64,000 nt of DNA from Alteromonadaceae bacterium Bs31 (GTDB lineage: Bacteria; Pseudomonadota; Gammaproteobacteria; Pseudomonadales; Cellvibrionaceae): contig FXAI01000002.1 in the NCBI GenBank assembly GCA_900177435.1, positions 270,386-334,385 on the forward strand. Direction: 5' to 3'. This document shows positions 1 through 6,951 of the stretch, piece by piece (position 1 is the stretch's first letter; every line of letters begins with the position of its first letter). Position numbers and translations under genes: made by a program. Below the pieces are notes generated by a model. The model was given only the letters and a program-made list of their open reading frames with translations. It searched no databases and was not told where the DNA came from.

Positions 1-514
1 AAACAGCCGAGCCTGGCCCGCGAATAACTTCGATACGCTCAATACTTTCAACGGGCATGCCGCCCCAGGATTGTCCTCGGTCGCCGTGAAATAGATTTGT
101 TATGGGTATGCCGTTTATTAATACCAGCACTTGGGGGTTATAGCTTGAATGAATGCCTCTAAATGTATAAACAGGGTTGTAGCCGATACTGGCTCGGCTA
201 ACGTGTAAACCGGGTATGGTTTCAAGTACCTGATCGAGGTCGCTGGCACCCATCGCGTGGATTTGATCTGCGGTAACAACGGAAGCAACTGCGGGTGCCT
301 TGTGGATGGGTTGCTCAATACCCGTGGCAATACTAATCATCTGATCGTCGCCATACATACTCATCAGTTGATCTTCATCATCTGTTAACAACTGTGCATT
401 GCTCGTCGCTGCCAATATCTGGCAGCCGACTAAAACCAGGAGCTTTGCGAGTACCTTTGACCTTTTTCTGGTGGCCGAGACGGGGGCAAGTGCATAAGCG
501 GAATGTTTAATCAC
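1..514 (-). CDS. TonB-dependent receptor, N-terminal part (runs off the left edge)
   Basis: The reverse strand has an open frame from the left edge to about position 576. Its translation has a hydrophobic signal-peptide-like stretch (LLVLVGCQILAATSNA) followed by a typical plug domain: APAVASVVTADQIHAMGASD, then LDQVLETIPGLHV, TFRGIHSS, QVLVLINGIPI and ESIERIEVIRGPGSAV. These are hallmark plug motifs of outer-membrane TonB-dependent receptors. No TonB box is obvious. I chose the GTG at 514 because the signal sequence follows it, but the frame stays open about 60 bases upstream and TTG starts there are possible. The C-terminal barrel lies outside the window, so the substrate cannot be judged. 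Confidence 0.85.
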   Translation of the reverse strand, partial: MIKHSAYALAPVSATRKRSKVLAKLLVLVGCQILAATSNAQLLTDDEDQLMSMYGDDQMISIATGIEQPIHKAPAVASVVTADQIHAMGASDLDQVLETIPGLHVSRASIGYNPVYTFRGIHSSYNPQVLVLINGIPITNLFHGDRGQSWGGMPVESIERIEVIRGPGSAV

Positions 515-802
515 AATCGTATTCAAACCTTGTTGTTTTTGCTTAGACGCAGCTCTATCAAGTTGTTGCAAATTAACTTATTCAGCTTGACGGTTTTGGG
601 AATGATCAGCGTACTTCAATATTGCTCGTATATTCGCGTACAAAAACCTGCTTTCATAGCTGGAAGCATTTTTGCGTGCACTATTTTGGACGTTCGCTTG
701 GTACTACGAGATCGCCACACGTTTAGGCAGAGTGGTAATAGTGGAAGAGCTTATTACTAGGTTTAGTTGTTAATCGCTGGTGGGTCAAACCGCGTGCTCT
801 TC

Positions 803-1690
803 TCAGTCATCAGCTTTTTGCCATTGGCGCGAAGAATGTCCTTTGTACTTAATCTGACTGCAGCGCATAGGGAAAAAACTTCCGGCGGGGTGTTTTAAGG
901 CATCCTCATAACAGACGATAAAACCCGGGCAAAAGCACTGAGTGAGATAGTAAACAAATTCACGTTCCTTCAATTGTTGATCAAGACCAATGGCTGCAAT
1001 TAAGCCACCCATATTGAGCTTTAAGGGATAGCCCAGCTCTTGCAAGCAGGCCTCTACTCGAAACGCCAATTGCACTGCGGCGCCGCTATCTGCACCCTCT
1101 CGTTTTAACAGCTTCATGAGTGGCCGCATACGTTCGTCGCCGGTGGAAACGGGCCGCCCATAGCCTGGCATAATATCCACTTCGCGCTTCTTGCCCTTGC
1201 CGGGTTTACCGCGTTTTTTGTCGCGGCGCTGCGCCATACGCGCTTTTACCAGTTCGCTTAATTCGCTATCTTTTTGTAAGCCGGATTGTAAGTCGCGCAG
1301 CATAGTGTAGGCGCGGTGAGTTGGCTGAAAGCCATAAATAATTGCATCAGATACCGCCGTGGCGCCACTGATACCAAGAGTGGAGCTGGACCGGGCAGAG
1401 CCCGCCAACGCCGCTATACGATTATTCCAGAGCCTGGGGTCCGGGATGCATCCGGAAAAAGTGAGCACTTTGTCCAGCAGCTGGTTGCTGTCTTCCTTGC
1501 CATGTTCACCGCGAATGGCAAAGAGGATGATGTCCATCCATTGTTTACCTTCCATGCTCTGTAAAATGTTCTCGCCATGCATGATCACCCGCTCGCCGGG
1601 AAACCACGCGCCAGCTTCAGTTTGCCAGTTGTTCTGCCACTGGGTTTTGGGGCTCGATTTAAGCATAAATTTCTCAGTTTCCCGGGTCAT
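803..1690 (-). CDS. Degenerate citrate-synthase-fold protein (long partner)
   Basis: A 295-residue protein of the citrate synthase/citryl-CoA lyase fold. The family frame is visible in IMPGYGRPVSTGDERMRPL (about 173-191, aligned by eye with the GFGHxVYKxxDPR segment), LNMGGLIAAIGLD (225-237, the NxDGxIAA segment) and FFPMRCSQIKYKG near the C-terminus. In this alignment the catalytic histidine of the first motif is Arg and the catalytic aspartate of the second is Gly, so independent citrate synthase activity is unlikely. A very basic insert (RRDKKRGKPGKGKKR, about 155-169) precedes the first motif. The start at 1690 overlaps the upstream gene by 17 bases; ATG at 1666, preceded by CTGAG, is the alternative. 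It is the last gene of a three-gene minus-strand operon with a ThDP enzyme. Specific function unknown. Confidence 0.7.
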   Translation of the reverse strand: MTRETEKFMLKSSPKTQWQNNWQTEAGAWFPGERVIMHGENILQSMEGKQWMDIILFAIRGEHGKEDSNQLLDKVLTFSGCIPDPRLWNNRIAALAGSARSSSTLGISGATAVSDAIIYGFQPTHRAYTMLRDLQSGLQKDSELSELVKARMAQRRDKKRGKPGKGKKREVDIMPGYGRPVSTGDERMRPLMKLLKREGADSGAAVQLAFRVEACLQELGYPLKLNMGGLIAAIGLDQQLKEREFVYYLTQCFCPGFIVCYEDALKHPAGSFFPMRCSQIKYKGHSSRQWQKADD

Positions 1691-2474
1691 TGAGTAAATG
1701 AAGCCCCTCGCTATGAAAAGGATAGCTGGACCAACCCTCGACATGTTGCTCAAGTGCAAACGCTGCAGCGCCTGGTAAGCGCAATAAGAGATAGAGCATC
1801 TCTGCTTGTTGTGCATCGAAGCCCAGATCGAAAAAAGCACTTGCCGCGACACCGGAAAGCGCCAGAGGCATGCTGGCTGCCGTTTCCAGCGCGGGCCTTT
1901 TATCTCTCAGCCAATTCAGATGCGGTGTTGCAGGGTGTGAGGCCAAGCGGCTGAGTGTTTGAAGTGTGGGCCTTGAGCAGGCGAGGCCATTGGGGTCAAA
2001 GCCGGCGGGGTGCTCCCTATCGGGCCAGGTGCTTGGGTCTGGCAAAGGCCAGCTCTGACTAAGATACCTTTGCCATTGCTTTGTGTCCTGGGCAAAGGAT
2101 TCCCAGCACAAAACGGCGTGGTAGACTTCCCTCGCACCGCCATGCTGACCAGCGCCAACACTGAGAGCGGCCATCAGGCAGGCTGCCATGGGTGAACCCC
2201 CAGCCGCAGCACTGGTGGCGGCCTGAGTAGCCAGGTCCCGAGGGCCCTGAGCAGCCAGGGCGACGGCTAGATCGTTGAGTAAACGTTTCTGTGGCTGGCT
2301 TGGCGGCTCTTTGCGAAACAGCAGGAAAAGGTATTCAATCCACTCCACCTGGCCCAGTAGATCACCAAAAACATCGTAGCCTGCACAGCGGCACTCGGCG
2401 GCAGTAAAGGGGTCATCGGCCTCTGCGCGCTCACTCCAGATAGCGCTGGTAAACGTTTCCTCTTGCTCGCTCAA
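1674..2474 (-). CDS. Citryl-CoA lyase/citrate synthase-like protein (short partner)
   Basis: A 266-residue protein. The N-terminus (CAGYDVFGDLLGQVEWIEYL, then LFLLFR) and the segment MAALSVGAGQHGGAREVYHA match the start and the first catalytic-His region (xHGGAxE) of citrate-synthase-fold proteins. The C-terminus (LSGVAASAFFDLGFDAQQAE, MLYLLLRLPGAAAFALEQ) matches the end of citryl-CoA lyase-like proteins. The usual GFGHPxHKxxDPR motif is not recognisable (GFDPNGLACSRP stands at that place). It lies 19 bases behind the ThDP gene and overlaps the next citrate-synthase-like gene, so the two probably form a hetero-oligomer. The chemistry is unknown; a CoA-thioester C-C bond reaction is the family expectation. 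Confidence 0.75.
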   Translation of the reverse strand: MSEQEETFTSAIWSERAEADDPFTAAECRCAGYDVFGDLLGQVEWIEYLFLLFRKEPPSQPQKRLLNDLAVALAAQGPRDLATQAATSAAAGGSPMAACLMAALSVGAGQHGGAREVYHAVLCWESFAQDTKQWQRYLSQSWPLPDPSTWPDREHPAGFDPNGLACSRPTLQTLSRLASHPATPHLNWLRDKRPALETAASMPLALSGVAASAFFDLGFDAQQAEMLYLLLRLPGAAAFALEQHVEGWSSYPFHSEGLHLLNDPGN

Positions 2475-2493
2475 ACTTGGCTCCTCGGTGGTT

Positions 2494-4284
2494 TTACTTG
2501 CTTGCGCGTTGCTGAAGTTCCGATGTTCTGGACTGAATAGGTGGCACCTGCTCCTGGTCCACTAAGACATCCAGCAACACTGGCCCCTTAGTCATCCAGT
2601 CGCGATTCTCGAAAAGCTCAAACCAATCATCCGGGCAGCGTATGTTAATCCCCCGCACGCCCAAAGATTTTGCCAAGAGTGCGAAATCAACCTGAGGTAG
2701 CTCAAAGCCAGTTTGCTCTGCACCTGTCAGGCGCTGGCCGTGTTTAACCATGCCGAGTGCGGCATCGTTGAGCACGATGAAAATAATGGGCAGGCGCTGT
2801 TGTAAGGCCACGGTGATTTCCTGTCCGCTCATGAGCCAGCTGCCATCACCAGTAATGCAAACGTGGGTCTGGCCGGGGTTGGCCAGGGCCGCGCCAATTG
2901 ACACGCCAATGGCCCAACCCATCGAGGCATACTCAATAGTGGCCTGGAATAAACCTTTTGGGCTGGCTTGTTGCCTTTCCTGGCGCCCGTGAGCTCTAGG
3001 GTGCAGATAGTGTATGGCCCAGGCCATACTATTGCCCACATCAGCCACATAGCGTGTGTTTGGGGGTAGATGCTGTGGCAGTTTGGTCATCAGCCACTGG
3101 GGTAATACGCGCCGCTGTCGCCAGCCCTCAGTCAGTTCAGGCGCAGCTCTGTTGTAGCAGGGCAAGGCGTATTTGTTGACGACCTCTACCTGCCGGGTGC
3201 GGTCCTTTCGCTGTATGCCTCGGCTCACCAATTCTGCCAGTAGTGACTCAAATACGGTTCTCACGGCAGCGTGAATCTGTAAACTTGCCATTGGCGTGTG
3301 GCACAGCTCAGTAGCTCTGGGGTGGATGTGCACCAGGCGCTGCCCTCTGTGTGTCTCTGGCTGCCAGCACCCTATTGCCCACTCACTCATGGAATTGCCG
3401 ACGGCAATCACTGTATCAACATCCGCTTGGCACAATTGCTCCCGGGCCAAAGGATGACCGGCGAAGCCGATAACACCTTTAAACAAGGGGTGGTGAGAAT
3501 GAATCAGACCCTTACCTTCGGGGGTGGAAACCAAAGCTGCTCCCACTTTAAACGCGCAATCCTCGATTAAGTCGCAGCTCTCAGCTGCCTCTGCGCCCAG
3601 AATAAAAACGCTTTTCTTGGCTGAGGCCAGAATATCGCCCAGTTCTTTGATCGCGGAAATATCCACGGCTTCCGGTGTTCTAATATGCTGACGCAAATCA
3701 CAGGGCGCTTGTTGTGGCAGCTTTTGTCTGAAAATATCGATGGGCACGCTGAGATGAACAGGCTTGCGCTCCCTAAAGGCCATTAGGATAGCGTGAGTGA
3801 GCTTGCGTTCGAATTGTTCAATGTGGGAGACGAGGGTGCTGTAAACCGTGCAAAATTGAAACAGGCCGACAAGGTCCGTACCAGTATCGGATGATTCCTG
3901 GAACGCGCCCTTGCCAAAATTGTTTAGCGAGGTTTGGGCGGTAATCACCAGCAGGGGGATGTTGTCGTTGTAGGCGGTGGCGACGCCGGTAATGATATTG
4001 GTTGCGCCCGGCCCCGTAGTGGTTGCGCAAACCCCAAGCTTATCTGCATTCTTTGAGTAACCCGCTGCCATAAATGCAGCGCCTGTTTCGTGCCGGGCAA
4101 CCACCATGCGTGGGCCTTGTTCTCTTTCACTTCTGGCAAAGGCATCGAACAGCGGTTCAATGGCACCACCAGGTATACCGAAAGCGTACTCTACACCCAA
4201 AGAAGCCAAGTAACTGACCAACAAATCACTGGCTTGCTGCAAGTCCTTCTGCTGCGTTTGCTCGCTTACTTCCTGCGCGCACAT
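2494..4284 (-). CDS. Thiamine-diphosphate-dependent enzyme (acetolactate synthase/benzoylformate decarboxylase superfamily)
   Basis: A 596-residue three-domain ThDP enzyme. The N-terminal pyrimidine-binding domain has YAFGIPGGAIEPLFD and the catalytic glutamate E66 in RHETGAAFMAAGYS. A central domain follows (HSHHPLFKGVIGFAGHPLA). The C-terminal pyrophosphate domain carries the cofactor motif GDGSWLMSGQE ending in VLND (about 479-507). Such enzymes decarboxylate or ligate 2-oxoacids; the closest general types are acetolactate synthase and sulfoacetaldehyde acetyltransferase, and I cannot choose between them. It is the first gene of the operon with the two citrate-synthase-like proteins. The ribosome site AGAGG lies 7 bases before ATG. 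It is not a housekeeping ilvB: no ilvN-type small subunit is adjacent. Confidence 0.85.
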   Translation of the reverse strand: MCAQEVSEQTQQKDLQQASDLLVSYLASLGVEYAFGIPGGAIEPLFDAFARSEREQGPRMVVARHETGAAFMAAGYSKNADKLGVCATTTGPGATNIITGVATAYNDNIPLLVITAQTSLNNFGKGAFQESSDTGTDLVGLFQFCTVYSTLVSHIEQFERKLTHAILMAFRERKPVHLSVPIDIFRQKLPQQAPCDLRQHIRTPEAVDISAIKELGDILASAKKSVFILGAEAAESCDLIEDCAFKVGAALVSTPEGKGLIHSHHPLFKGVIGFAGHPLAREQLCQADVDTVIAVGNSMSEWAIGCWQPETHRGQRLVHIHPRATELCHTPMASLQIHAAVRTVFESLLAELVSRGIQRKDRTRQVEVVNKYALPCYNRAAPELTEGWRQRRVLPQWLMTKLPQHLPPNTRYVADVGNSMAWAIHYLHPRAHGRQERQQASPKGLFQATIEYASMGWAIGVSIGAALANPGQTHVCITGDGSWLMSGQEITVALQQRLPIIFIVLNDAALGMVKHGQRLTGAEQTGFELPQVDFALLAKSLGVRGINIRCPDDWFELFENRDWMTKGPVLLDVLVDQEQVPPIQSRTSELQQRASK

Positions 4285-4725
4285 CTAGATACCTCTCAAC
4301 TGCTTACCTGCCTTATGACTTAGTATTATTCCTTACCCGACTAAGGGCACCTGCTACTTATTAAGTTTAGCTAAAAATCTTAGATTTTCACTATTTCACG
4401 TGTTATCTATACAGAGACAACACTGGCACATTCATGCTTGTAATAAAAATAGCGCCACTTAAAAAACATAGTGTAGTCGCGGTGAATTATTTAAACCTTA
4501 GGTAACAAAACTTGCGATAGCGCAAGCAAACGCCGTGTGCAGGGTGATTAGCACGCCAACTTTGCATACGCTGTGTTTTTCGAGAGAAAAGTAAACAAAA
4601 GCCTCAGTCATTGCCGTTTAGCGTTTATTCAAAGGTTTTTGAGCTCAAACGCTGGCAATCCTCAATAAATTGCCGGAAAATTCTTTGTCGTTAAATTCAT
4701 TATGGACAAGACAATAGGAAGGATT
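4285..4725. other. Divergent intergenic region
   Basis: This 441-base gap separates the leftward ThDP operon from the rightward transglutaminase-like gene and must hold promoters for both. It is A+T rich. The only clear structure is a small inverted repeat, CTTGCG-ATAG-CGCAAG, at 4511-4526, of unknown role. I could not assign -35/-10 boxes with confidence. Confidence 0.5.
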
Positions 4726-6951
4726 ATGCAGTCTATGTATCGCACTCTCGCTGGCACCCTGGCTGGCGTACTGTTGGCTTTTACCGCCTTGGCCTCTAAT
4801 GCTCAGGCAGTGAGCCTGGGGCCAGAACTAAGCACCCAGGCAAAGCAAAAAACCAGTAACGAGGGCGCAGAAACGCTCTATTCTATTGTCCACTCTTCCC
4901 TCGATGATAAGGGTGACTGGGAGCGTGTCAGTTATTACTCCATCCGCATTAACGACCAGGAAGCCGCGAGAGACTACGGCCGCTTGGTGATACCTTATAA
5001 CCACTATTACAATTCTGCAGAGCTGCAATTTGCCAATGTGTTGAGCGCAGATGGCTCAGTAAAGCCAGTGTCCAAAGATGCCGTTCAGGTTCGTACCGTA
5101 GGCGGTGGCCAGGATTTTTATGATGACCGGAGTGAAATCGTTTTTTCTCTACCGGATGTAGCACCTGGAGCCATCATCGAATTTCAGCTTCAGACCAAAA
5201 CCATTAAGCGAGCCATTACCAGTGTCGATTTCGATAGCGCCAGCCCATTCTGGTTTCAACAGCGGGTCGCCAACGATGGCTGGCGGGCAGACTCGGTAAA
5301 AAACTTTAGCTATCGAGTAGAAATGCCTGCGGGTAAAACCTTTCACACCAGGGTATACGGCCCTTATTCCTCCAAGCACAAAACAGGTAAAGCAAATAAG
5401 CGCGTTAGCTTCGAGTGGCGCTGGAAGAATGTTGAGGCAATTATTCTTGAAAATGCGATGTTGCCTGAGCATCAGGTTATGCCCTCCATTAAATTGAGTA
5501 ACACTACCGACTGGTCCTTAGTCAACCGATGGAACTGGGAAAAAGTTGAAAACAAACTTAGCGCTACCAGCAAAATAAAGGCCGTAGTTAAATCTCTTAA
5601 TTTGCCGCAATCTGCTACTCGCGACGAAAAAATCAAAGCTGTTTATCGCTACATTAACGACAACGTTCGCTATGTATTTGCCCACTTAGGGCGTGGCGGT
5701 TACGACCCGCATTTTCCCGATGAAACCCTGCAAAATGGTTATGGTGACTGCAAGGACCAAACAGTGCTTGCCCTTGCCATGCTCAAGGCACTGGGTGTGC
5801 AGGCTCATGCGGCCTTGGTAGAAACACCTCGCTCGGGCTTTTCCGATATGGAATTGGTGAGGCTGATATTCGATCATATGATCGTGTGGGTTGCTCCCGA
5901 GGGGGACAGCCCTGCGCAGTGGCTCGATACCACAGGAGATCGCACCTTGTACCCCGGTGTTTCAAACTTTCTAGTGGGGCAACCGGCATTAATTGTCGAT
6001 AACAAAAATGGCCTGGTCACCCACGTGGATGCAGAGCTGCAAGCCAATGTTACTCGCTTGAACCTTGTTTATCGGGAGGCCAATGGTCATTCGCTTGTGG
6101 AAGTTAACTACTTACCTTCAGGCATTTATGAACAGAATATGCGCTCGTGGTGGAAGCATGATACTAATCGTGAAACTTCGCTCCAGCATTTTATGGAGGC
6201 TGTTTTTGAAAACCCGAGTGAATATACCCTGCAAGCGGATGTGCTGAACGCAGAGGAGTTATTTAAGCCCTTTGAAATTAAAGCGGTATATAAATTCAAA
6301 GCTCGCAACGATGACACCCAGGCAACTGTTTACGGTGCATCTTTTCAGCAAATATACCGGCTGGCGGGTGAAATATCTTCCATGCAGATCCCTTCAAGTC
6401 GAAAAAATGTCTGGTATACCCCCATGGCTATCGAGCTGAGTTTAACGGCGCAGTTTAGCGGTGGAAAAAACACTATTCCGGCCTTGATACAAAGTGGAAA
6501 AAGCCTCAACAATGAGTATTTTTCTTTTCAGCAAAAGGGCTACAGCGAAGGGAATGATTTTATTGTAGAAATTAATTATCAGCGGCCCTCACTGGAGCTG
6601 GATGTGGAGCAATATGCTGATTTTCATGCGCAACTATTAAAACTGGGTACCATGAACGCCTGGGTGGTAAGTATGCTGAAAGATGATGTTGGCAGTGAAC
6701 AGCAGTCGGTAGAGCAGCAGCGCAACCAGCACGGTGAAAACAGCCTGGAATACCAGCTAACACTGGCGCGACATCATTTGAACCTGGGTGAATTTGAATT
6801 GGCTCTTGCGCCAGCAAAAGAAGCAGTGCGCCTGGCGCCGAAAGACGGTGAAGCCTGGTTTGTATTGGGTACCGCGCAAGGCTTCAATACCTTAATAGAC
6901 GATTCAAACACCTCTTTCGAAAACGCCAGAGCACTTGGTTACACCCCCTAA
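4726..6951 (+). CDS. Exported DUF3857/transglutaminase-like protein with a TPR tail
   Basis: A 741-residue protein with a signal peptide (GTLAGVLLAFTALASNAQA). The first half matches DUF3857 (SVKPVSKDAVQVRT, EIVFSLPDVAPGAIIEFQLQ). A transglutaminase-like core follows, with the Cys-His-Asp triad visible as NGYGDCKDQTVLALAMLK, FDHMIVWV and QWLDTTGD. The C-terminus has tetratricopeptide-like helices (LGEFELALAPAKEAVRLAPK). Proteins of this type are periplasmic; their substrate is generally unknown, with cross-linking or proteolysis as family possibilities. I chose the internal ATG at 4726 because AGGAAGG stands just upstream and the signal peptide begins there; an ATG at 4702 is in frame. The next gene, a lipoprotein, starts 9 bases after the stop, so the two are likely one operon. 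Confidence 0.85.
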   Translation: MQSMYRTLAGTLAGVLLAFTALASNAQAVSLGPELSTQAKQKTSNEGAETLYSIVHSSLDDKGDWERVSYYSIRINDQEAARDYGRLVIPYNHYYNSAELQFANVLSADGSVKPVSKDAVQVRTVGGGQDFYDDRSEIVFSLPDVAPGAIIEFQLQTKTIKRAITSVDFDSASPFWFQQRVANDGWRADSVKNFSYRVEMPAGKTFHTRVYGPYSSKHKTGKANKRVSFEWRWKNVEAIILENAMLPEHQVMPSIKLSNTTDWSLVNRWNWEKVENKLSATSKIKAVVKSLNLPQSATRDEKIKAVYRYINDNVRYVFAHLGRGGYDPHFPDETLQNGYGDCKDQTVLALAMLKALGVQAHAALVETPRSGFSDMELVRLIFDHMIVWVAPEGDSPAQWLDTTGDRTLYPGVSNFLVGQPALIVDNKNGLVTHVDAELQANVTRLNLVYREANGHSLVEVNYLPSGIYEQNMRSWWKHDTNRETSLQHFMEAVFENPSEYTLQADVLNAEELFKPFEIKAVYKFKARNDDTQATVYGASFQQIYRLAGEISSMQIPSSRKNVWYTPMAIELSLTAQFSGGKNTIPALIQSGKSLNNEYFSFQQKGYSEGNDFIVEINYQRPSLELDVEQYADFHAQLLKLGTMNAWVVSMLKDDVGSEQQSVEQQRNQHGENSLEYQLTLARHHLNLGEFELALAPAKEAVRLAPKDGEAWFVLGTAQGFNTLIDDSNTSFENARALGYTP

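Follow-up and report, generated by a model that had tools for sequence, protein, structure and literature searches.

A conserved proteobacterial operon joining a thiamine diphosphate enzyme, two citrate-synthase-fold proteins without the catalytic triad and a receptor-sensor gene set: a possible make-and-sense system

Sensing of autoinducer 2 (AI-2) by LuxP-LuxQ combines a periplasmic binding protein (PBP) with a hybrid histidine kinase (HK), and XclA of the xenocyloin pathway is a thiamine diphosphate (ThDP) acyloin synthase. To our knowledge, the xenocyloin pathway includes neither a pair of citrate synthase (CS)-like proteins nor a receptor-sensor half. Its enzymes XclB and XclC from Xenorhabdus bovienii are condensing-type, ester-forming enzymes (PMC4425429). 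CqsA and LqsA make alpha-hydroxyketone autoinducers and are related to aminotransferases dependent on pyridoxal phosphate (PLP) (PMC3376566). In Vibrio parahaemolyticus, ScrABC comprises a signal-making enzyme, a PBP and GGDEF/EAL domains encoded in one operon (PMC11315295, PMC9303241). Here we describe an operon at one end of a 64,000-nucleotide stretch of DNA from Alteromonadaceae bacterium Bs31, hereafter the window, in which a ThDP enzyme gene is followed by two genes for CS-fold proteins and by genes for a TonB-dependent receptor (TBDR), a PBP and an HK. We propose, with a confidence that falls a little short of an even chance, that this compact operon makes and senses a small, autoinducer-like molecule, the predicted product being of acyloin type. 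The openly accessible literature that we searched (subscription papers and preprints lay outside the search) holds no description of this gene set, in agreement with the first-pass annotation of this DNA, made from the letters alone, which knew of no described pathway.

The first three genes lie on the minus strand in the order ThDP gene, short CS-fold gene, long CS-fold gene (window 4284-803), which confirms the operon seen in the first-pass annotation. The features in the window are the following:

2494-4284, minus strand: ThDP enzyme of the acetolactate synthase superfamily, predicted carboligase, 596 amino acids (aa), with Pfam TPP_enzyme_N/M/C.
1674-2474, minus strand: short citryl-CoA-lyase-fold protein, 266 aa, TTG start, assigned by NCBIfam, AlphaFold2 (AF2), Foldseek and residue tallies.
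803-1690, minus strand: long citryl-CoA-lyase-fold protein, 295 aa from 1690, assigned by the same four means.
1-571, minus strand: 5' part of the TBDR gene, with Pfam Plug; member of the conserved set.
4285-4701, strand unassigned: divergent intergenic region, presumed from sequence to hold the operon promoter.

The full open reading frame of the TBDR counts 740 aa from a TTG codon, and its remainder lies left of the window (L081 13735-15957). Beyond this left end the unit continues on the same strand (G000:C45) with the TBDR, PBP and HK genes. The ThDP and short genes are spaced by 19 bases, as had been noted. The 17-base overlap reported between the short and long genes requires the long gene to begin at 1690. 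The consensus drawn from an alignment of 41 long proteins opens with a Met encoded at 1666, probably the start that relatives share, which may turn the junction into a gap of 7 bases. Among relatives, the median overlap is 4 bases at both the ThDP-short (65) and the short-long (72) junctions, values slightly biased upward because first possible starts were used.

Relatives were identified by scanning named genomes with a window-like alignment, which found 265, and the best 80 loci were fetched and counted. A scan of genome contigs with the long protein alone as query gave no relatives, whereas the alignment query did. Judged by record titles, the best 80 loci belong mostly to Gamma- and in part to Betaproteobacteria; single records labelled Geobacter and Flavobacteriales may have been misbinned. 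Where the contig is long enough to be testable, 68 of 69 loci have the ThDP gene no more than 3 kb away on the 5' side (same strand in 67), and 61 of 63 have a TBDR gene no more than 3.5 kb from the long gene (same strand in 56). The coupling to the ThDP gene that the first-pass annotation had claimed is thus borne out by this survey of the best 80 loci, in which homologs do not occur mostly without that gene; exceptions are found in more distant carriers. In 50 of the 80 loci the fetched stretch contains all six gene types; counted singly and uncorrected for contig ends, the ThDP gene occurs in 76, the short gene in 75, the long gene in 78, the TBDR gene in 69, the PBP gene in 53 and the HK gene in 60.

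The two CS-fold genes also travel together at wider range. Among 293 genomes of the order, the short protein is found in 37, the long protein in 36 and both in 35 (E up to 2e-10). In the 321 genomes of the class, at E <1e-35, the long protein occurs in 36, the PBP in 41 and both in 31, compared with 4.6 expected, and in the 299 genomes of the phylum the long protein is found in 10 at E up to 1e-20, its own genome counted. Protein clusters in 40 stretches from the order comprise the ThDP enzyme in 33, the TBDR in 32, HK-type proteins in 28 and the PBP in 23. Chance neighbourhood is rejected by the edge-corrected neighbour counts and the genome co-occurrence; spread by plasmids is likewise rejected, as 72,556 plasmid records gave one weak match of 28% identity. 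Pairwise distances of five proteins of the operon correlate across 41 loci (r 0.67-0.81), for which common descent alone suffices. Conservation of the CS pair extends over many families, and the pair is not decaying.

Both CS-fold chains resemble in fold and length the citryl-CoA lyase of Hydrogenobacter thermophilus (PDB 6hxp) and the citryl-CoA lyase module of ATP-citrate lyase. AF2 models of the short and long proteins reach a mean confidence (pLDDT) of 87.4 and 86.4, and the top Foldseek match of both is 6hxp (E 4.8e-07 for the short, 1.5e-08 for the long), which places both chains in the CS fold on the basis of predicted models. 6hxp is also the best PDB sequence match of the short chain, the long chain being without a meaningful one. 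In contrast to citryl-CoA lyase, however, two paralogs occur together here, both have lost the His-His-Asp triad, and their scores lie far below the NCBIfam cut-offs (PRK06224: 62.4 bits for the short protein against a cut-off of 245, and 28.4 bits for the long protein against 193).

Triad residues were read by aligning the chains to part of 6hxp and to the citrate synthase of the same genome; the AF2 models drew on 41 of the 71 short relatives that were usable and on 40 of the 66 long ones. Tallies were made on distinct sequences, namely 109 of 112 short rows and 104 of 106 long rows, three loci being repeats of others, after removal of L077 and L080, taken to be ordinary CS-family proteins (the latter kept as a reference row), of rows outside the length limits and of short proteins containing X. 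The long protein of the window reads GYGRPV...DER, with Arg in place of His, and LNMGG, with Gly in place of Asp, exactly as the first-pass annotation had it. In all 104 distinct sequences of the long family the second catalytic His has given way to Arg, and the DPR motif, here DER, retains its Arg; other residues stand in place of the first His and the Asp, neither of which is among the tallied residues. The short protein of the window carries GQHGG, so that the HGG motif with its first His, taken in the first-pass annotation as retained, is indeed present in the window. This His is found in only 9 of 109 distinct sequences, the window among them; it is a lineage-specific and not a family feature.

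At the aligned place of the second His the short protein of the window has no His, and the short family shows no His in the second-His column and no Asp in the Asp column among the tallied residues. Ser or Thr stands at the Asp place in 97 of 109, and the Arg of RxPG is kept in 89 of 109. In the same loop as the second His, 88 of 109 short proteins have an HxPGF motif (x = Pro, Ala or Ser), whose His (His155 in the window) is placed by the alignment out of register with the second His. His155 is near-invariant in window-like short proteins, in which many other residues are invariant. The loss of the second His claimed for the short protein therefore holds by aligned column and is alignment-dependent, because this conserved loop His lies nearby. 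A complete His-His-Asp triad in either chain, which had been named as evidence to the contrary, is rejected by the residue tallies, the second His of the short protein being unsure. The degenerate triads are complementary in the two chains and therefore suit a heteromer, and together with two full-length paralogs and close gene coupling they make a short-long heteromer plausible as judged from sequence.

The ThDP enzyme has the three ThDP domains and the intact cofactor motifs that it shares with acetolactate synthase and ScyA-related enzymes, and it is a member of the acetolactate synthase superfamily. All 100 ThDP rows (97 distinct) carry the catalytic Glu (Glu66) and the GDG...N motif without change, one row with X having been dropped before the count. 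Unlike acetolactate synthase and ScyA, it remains below the NCBIfam cut-offs (the best model, acolac_lg, gives 275.6 bits against 538, which does not support the acetolactate synthase equivalog), and its family usually stands with the CS pair and sensor genes. In 15 genomes searched, a family member with E <1e-200 is present in 7, and all other ThDP matches are at 5e-99 or weaker; by this comparison the ThDP proteins form a family of their own, apart from ordinary acetolactate synthase. The nearest solved relatives in the PDB are BbmA and CsmA, on which our literature search found no paper.

In several loci the CS pair is replaced by other enzymes. In L164 (genome G181) the gene after the ThDP gene encodes a 3-oxoacyl-acyl carrier protein synthase III (KAS III), and the TBDR, PBP and HK genes come next; L043 (G107), from the same genus, has the CS pair at the place of this KAS III. 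The two loci are 70% identical in the ThDP enzyme, 56% in the TBDR, 61% in the HK, 26% in the PBP and 48-81% in flanking genes, and their ThDP proteins are sisters (SH-aLRT, the Shimodaira-Hasegawa-like approximate likelihood ratio test, 96) in a tree obtained by quick search, in which the outgroup and some rows including L186 are long-branched and of unsure placement. In L186 (G324) the order is ThDP, a 131-aa protein lacking a Pfam match, KAS III, TBDR, PBP and HK. The gene of the 131-aa protein (L186:5665-6060) overlaps both the ThDP and the KAS III gene, and the protein is possibly an uncharacterised part of this variant. Aligned with the FabH of L201, which is above the fabH cut-off, both KAS III proteins keep Cys-His-Asn. 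With a ThDP enzyme and a KAS III-like partner, the L164 and L186 variants resemble the xenocyloin pathway. L185 (G423) has ThDP, a methyltransferase, TBDR, PBP and HK. Short-chain dehydrogenase genes were seen in several loci (by eye; one scanned).

The receptor-sensor trio is also found with another type of synthase. In L165 (G142), TBDR, PBP and HK come after two alpha-oxoamine-synthase-like genes and a methyltransferase. The two alpha-oxoamine-synthase-like proteins measure 830 and 846 aa, and the methyltransferase gene lies between theirs (L165:232-6838); the first one, which was scanned, has a weak FemAB-like C-terminal part. It scores below the autoinducer-synthase cut-off (82 against 428 bits). 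CqsA/CqsS and LqsA/LqsS (PMC3376566) are alike to our operon in the predicted product class and the hybrid kinase, and the L165 trio stands beside alpha-oxoamine-synthase-like genes. They differ from our operon in that the synthase here is a ThDP and not a PLP enzyme and that a TBDR and a PBP precede the kinase. A PLP alpha-oxoamine synthase was not seen among the genes of the operon; variant L165 has such genes.

The PBP, of 334 aa, is of the PF04392 type; it scores 23.2 bits, just below the cut-off of 25.9, which the PBPs of L047 and L165 pass. Among the five proteins it has the lowest mean identity (0.33, compared with 0.48-0.60). The HK of the window is a hybrid histidine kinase of 779 aa with HAMP, HisKA, HATPase and two receivers. 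The match to the LuxQ model gives 294.5 bits, below the cut-off of 1200, is confined to the common kinase core (residues 250-623) and is outscored by the matches to BarA and TorS models. As in LuxP-LuxQ, PBP and hybrid kinase are encoded together, but the PBP is of another family. A GGDEF motif is present in 37 of 49 relatives' kinases adjoining the PBP, 43 of the 49 frames being cut at the stretch end, and the kinase of L047 has HisKA, receivers, Hpt, GGDEF and EAL. Compared with ScrABC, enzymes and a PBP are present here, and GGDEF occurs in most of these kinases but not in that of the window; ScrABC differs in its PLP-type enzyme and in having, as described there, no TBDR in the operon and no kinase relay (PMC11315295, PMC9303241).

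From the observed anatomy, conservation, residue losses, predicted folds and partner exchange we infer a product, its secretion and binding, and a kinase response. In a first step, suggested by the family and the intact cofactor motifs, the ThDP enzyme would decarboxylate a 2-oxo acid and join the aldehyde so activated to another carbonyl; the product would be either an acyloin (alpha-hydroxyketone) or a 2-hydroxy-3-oxo acid. In a second step, the CS-fold chains, probably as one heteromer, would modify the ThDP product or feed its synthesis via acyl-CoA, by a chemistry that departs from the His-His-Asp enolisation seen in citrate synthase; this step is suggested by the CS fold, the loss of the triad and the in-place replacement by KAS III, an enzyme acting on acyl-CoA or acyl carrier protein. 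For the CS pair the simplest role would be to carry out a step that uses acyl-CoA or to serve as a structural partner of the ThDP enzyme. In some lineages a short-chain dehydrogenase is added, or a methyltransferase stands in for the CS pair. In a third step, for which the gene set speaks, the product would leave the cell, be re-imported across the outer membrane by the TBDR and be bound by the PF04392-type PBP, and the hybrid HK would read the PBP-ligand complex, with cyclic di-GMP (c-di-GMP) as a predicted output through the GGDEF domains of most tested relatives.

The constant ThDP carboligase and sensing set, combined with variable tailoring enzymes, are what one would expect of a make-and-sense circuit with diversified ligands; ScrABC and CqsA/LqsA provide precedents. 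The first-pass annotation had assumed a heteromer with shared active site or regulation, coupled to a ThDP enzyme that supplies or uses an acyl or aldehyde unit. That interpretation is partly supported; the receptor-sensor half and the exchange of the CS pair lay outside its view, and they favour the making of a small molecule that is then sensed over an active site of citrate type shared by the two chains. We advance more tentatively still the wider idea of a new class of cell-cell signalling in Gamma- and Betaproteobacteria, in which a ThDP acyloin synthase, its tailoring partners being exchangeable, would make a family of signals that units of TBDR, PBP and hybrid kinase translate into c-di-GMP, and the triad-less CS-fold heteromer would be a new acyl-CoA-dependent catalyst, neither citrate synthase nor lyase; taken as a whole, this is rather less likely to be right than wrong. 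If the make-and-sense proposal is right, parts that match known models only below cut-offs (acetolactate synthase, citryl-CoA lyase, TonB receptor) would belong to one make-and-sense unit, a testable new signal or chelator would exist in many environmental Proteobacteria, and the CS fold, its catalytic residues lost in two paralogs, would be strongly conserved for another job.

The CS pair might instead be a purely non-catalytic subunit that regulates or scaffolds the ThDP enzyme in the manner of acetolactate synthase small subunits, which would be compatible with a make-and-sense operon. The missing triad in both chains, the close gene coupling to the ThDP gene and the invariant Arg at the second-His place of the long protein, which suggests conserved binding and not catalysis, agree with such a subunit. 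The in-place swap for a KAS III with intact Cys-His-Asn suggests a chemical step, and the near-invariance of His155 among many invariant residues argues in the same direction; we regard an exclusively non-catalytic pair as less likely than not.

A number of observations weigh against the make-and-sense proposal. The HK of the window has neither GGDEF nor EAL, and no exporter was recognised. CS-fold genes also occur without a ThDP gene in the fetched stretch, in the order TBDR-long-short in L190 and L191, and likewise in L194 and L196; the genomes of all four carry a ThDP gene elsewhere. L192 and L193 have ThDP-short-long without the TBDR. In L199 (G494), the ThDP gene is followed by 2-oxoglutarate-dehydrogenase-type genes (E1) with no CS pair nearby, and the G494 genome yields no long CS protein at 1e-8. 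The PBP is found without a family-level ThDP enzyme in six draft genomes (G522, G503, G523, G343 and G575 of the class, G142 of the order), which could be accounted for by eavesdropping, by a different ligand or by missing sequence. L060 and L062, from the genus of the window, have a distant version, TBDR-ThDP-short-long, in which the PBP is missing. A special divergence of the PBP upon the KAS III swap failed its control, the outlier being L043 and 8 of 78 comparable pairs being equally low. Finally, modA, modB and modC of L061 pass the NCBIfam cut-offs, which puts a molybdate ABC transporter beside a distant operon version; a molybdate-type permease cluster is present in 4 of 40 loci of the order, all from one family (L061, L071, L073, L074).

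The molybdate transporter adjoining distant versions suits a metal-linked role. The enzymes might make an alpha-hydroxy-acid or hydroxyketone chelator, the TBDR import the metal complex, and PBP and HK regulate. The receptor expected of siderophore or metallophore systems is present, near the long gene in nearly all testable loci, and the 25 listed NCBIfam matches of the window TBDR, all below cut-off, are mostly to haem, siderophore and B12 receptor models. The PBP, however, is PF04392/TrpX-like and belongs to no named siderophore-binding family, and the window-like operon contains no inner-membrane importer. Control by iron is rejected on scores for Fur-like sites, which stay at shuffle level with the consensus applied: 5' of the window ThDP gene the best match is 12/19, reached in 168 of 300 shuffles, and in the ThDP upstream regions of 65 relatives the mean best match is 11.2/19 as compared with 11.3 after shuffling. 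We consider a metallophore or metal-oxyanion system improbable.

A scavenging or catabolic system, in which the TBDR imports an environmental compound, PBP and HK sense it, and the ThDP and CS-fold proteins degrade it by lyase reactions, seems to us quite improbable. Nutrient uptake systems are commonly laid out as a TBDR plus a sensor, lyase reactions are also within the reach of ThDP enzymes and citryl-CoA lyases, and the ThDP gene adjoins 2-oxoglutarate-dehydrogenase genes in L199 and, by eye, in Cycloclasticus-type loci. Yet the window-like operon has no cytoplasmic-membrane transporter, the CS-fold chains lack the triad of citryl-CoA lyase, KAS III or a methyltransferase can replace the CS pair, and the TBDR-PBP-HK trio also stands beside alpha-oxoamine-synthase-like genes, which are usually anabolic. 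Ordinary primary metabolism by an acetolactate synthase paralog with a citrate synthase remnant, to which superfamily membership would point, is very improbable given the separate ThDP family, the adjoining sensor genes and the conservation of the CS pair.

Variant loci show further neighbours. The version in the window is closer to those of other families than to that of L060 and L062, which suggests separate acquisition; in these two loci a divergent gene for a 547-aa chemoreceptor adjoins the operon (PF00015 scanned in L060). Next to modABC in L061 (1175-5240) lies the gene of a 456-aa protein without Pfam or NCBIfam match, whose family occurs in 8 of 40 loci of the order. In L063 and L065 a sulfotransferase gene (PF13469 in L063) stands between the TBDR and the short CS-fold gene. 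In L057 and L058 three co-clustering genes lie upstream of the ThDP gene, one of them acyl-CoA-dehydrogenase-like by eye. The operon comes after same-strand genes for 2-oxoglutarate dehydrogenase E1, E2 and E3 in L105, L106, L114, L115 and L118, and L107-type loci have branched-chain oxo-acid dehydrogenase-like genes upstream (both by eye). In the window itself, the divergent neighbour gene (4702-6951), with DUF3857 and transglutaminase domains, lies outside the conserved operon.

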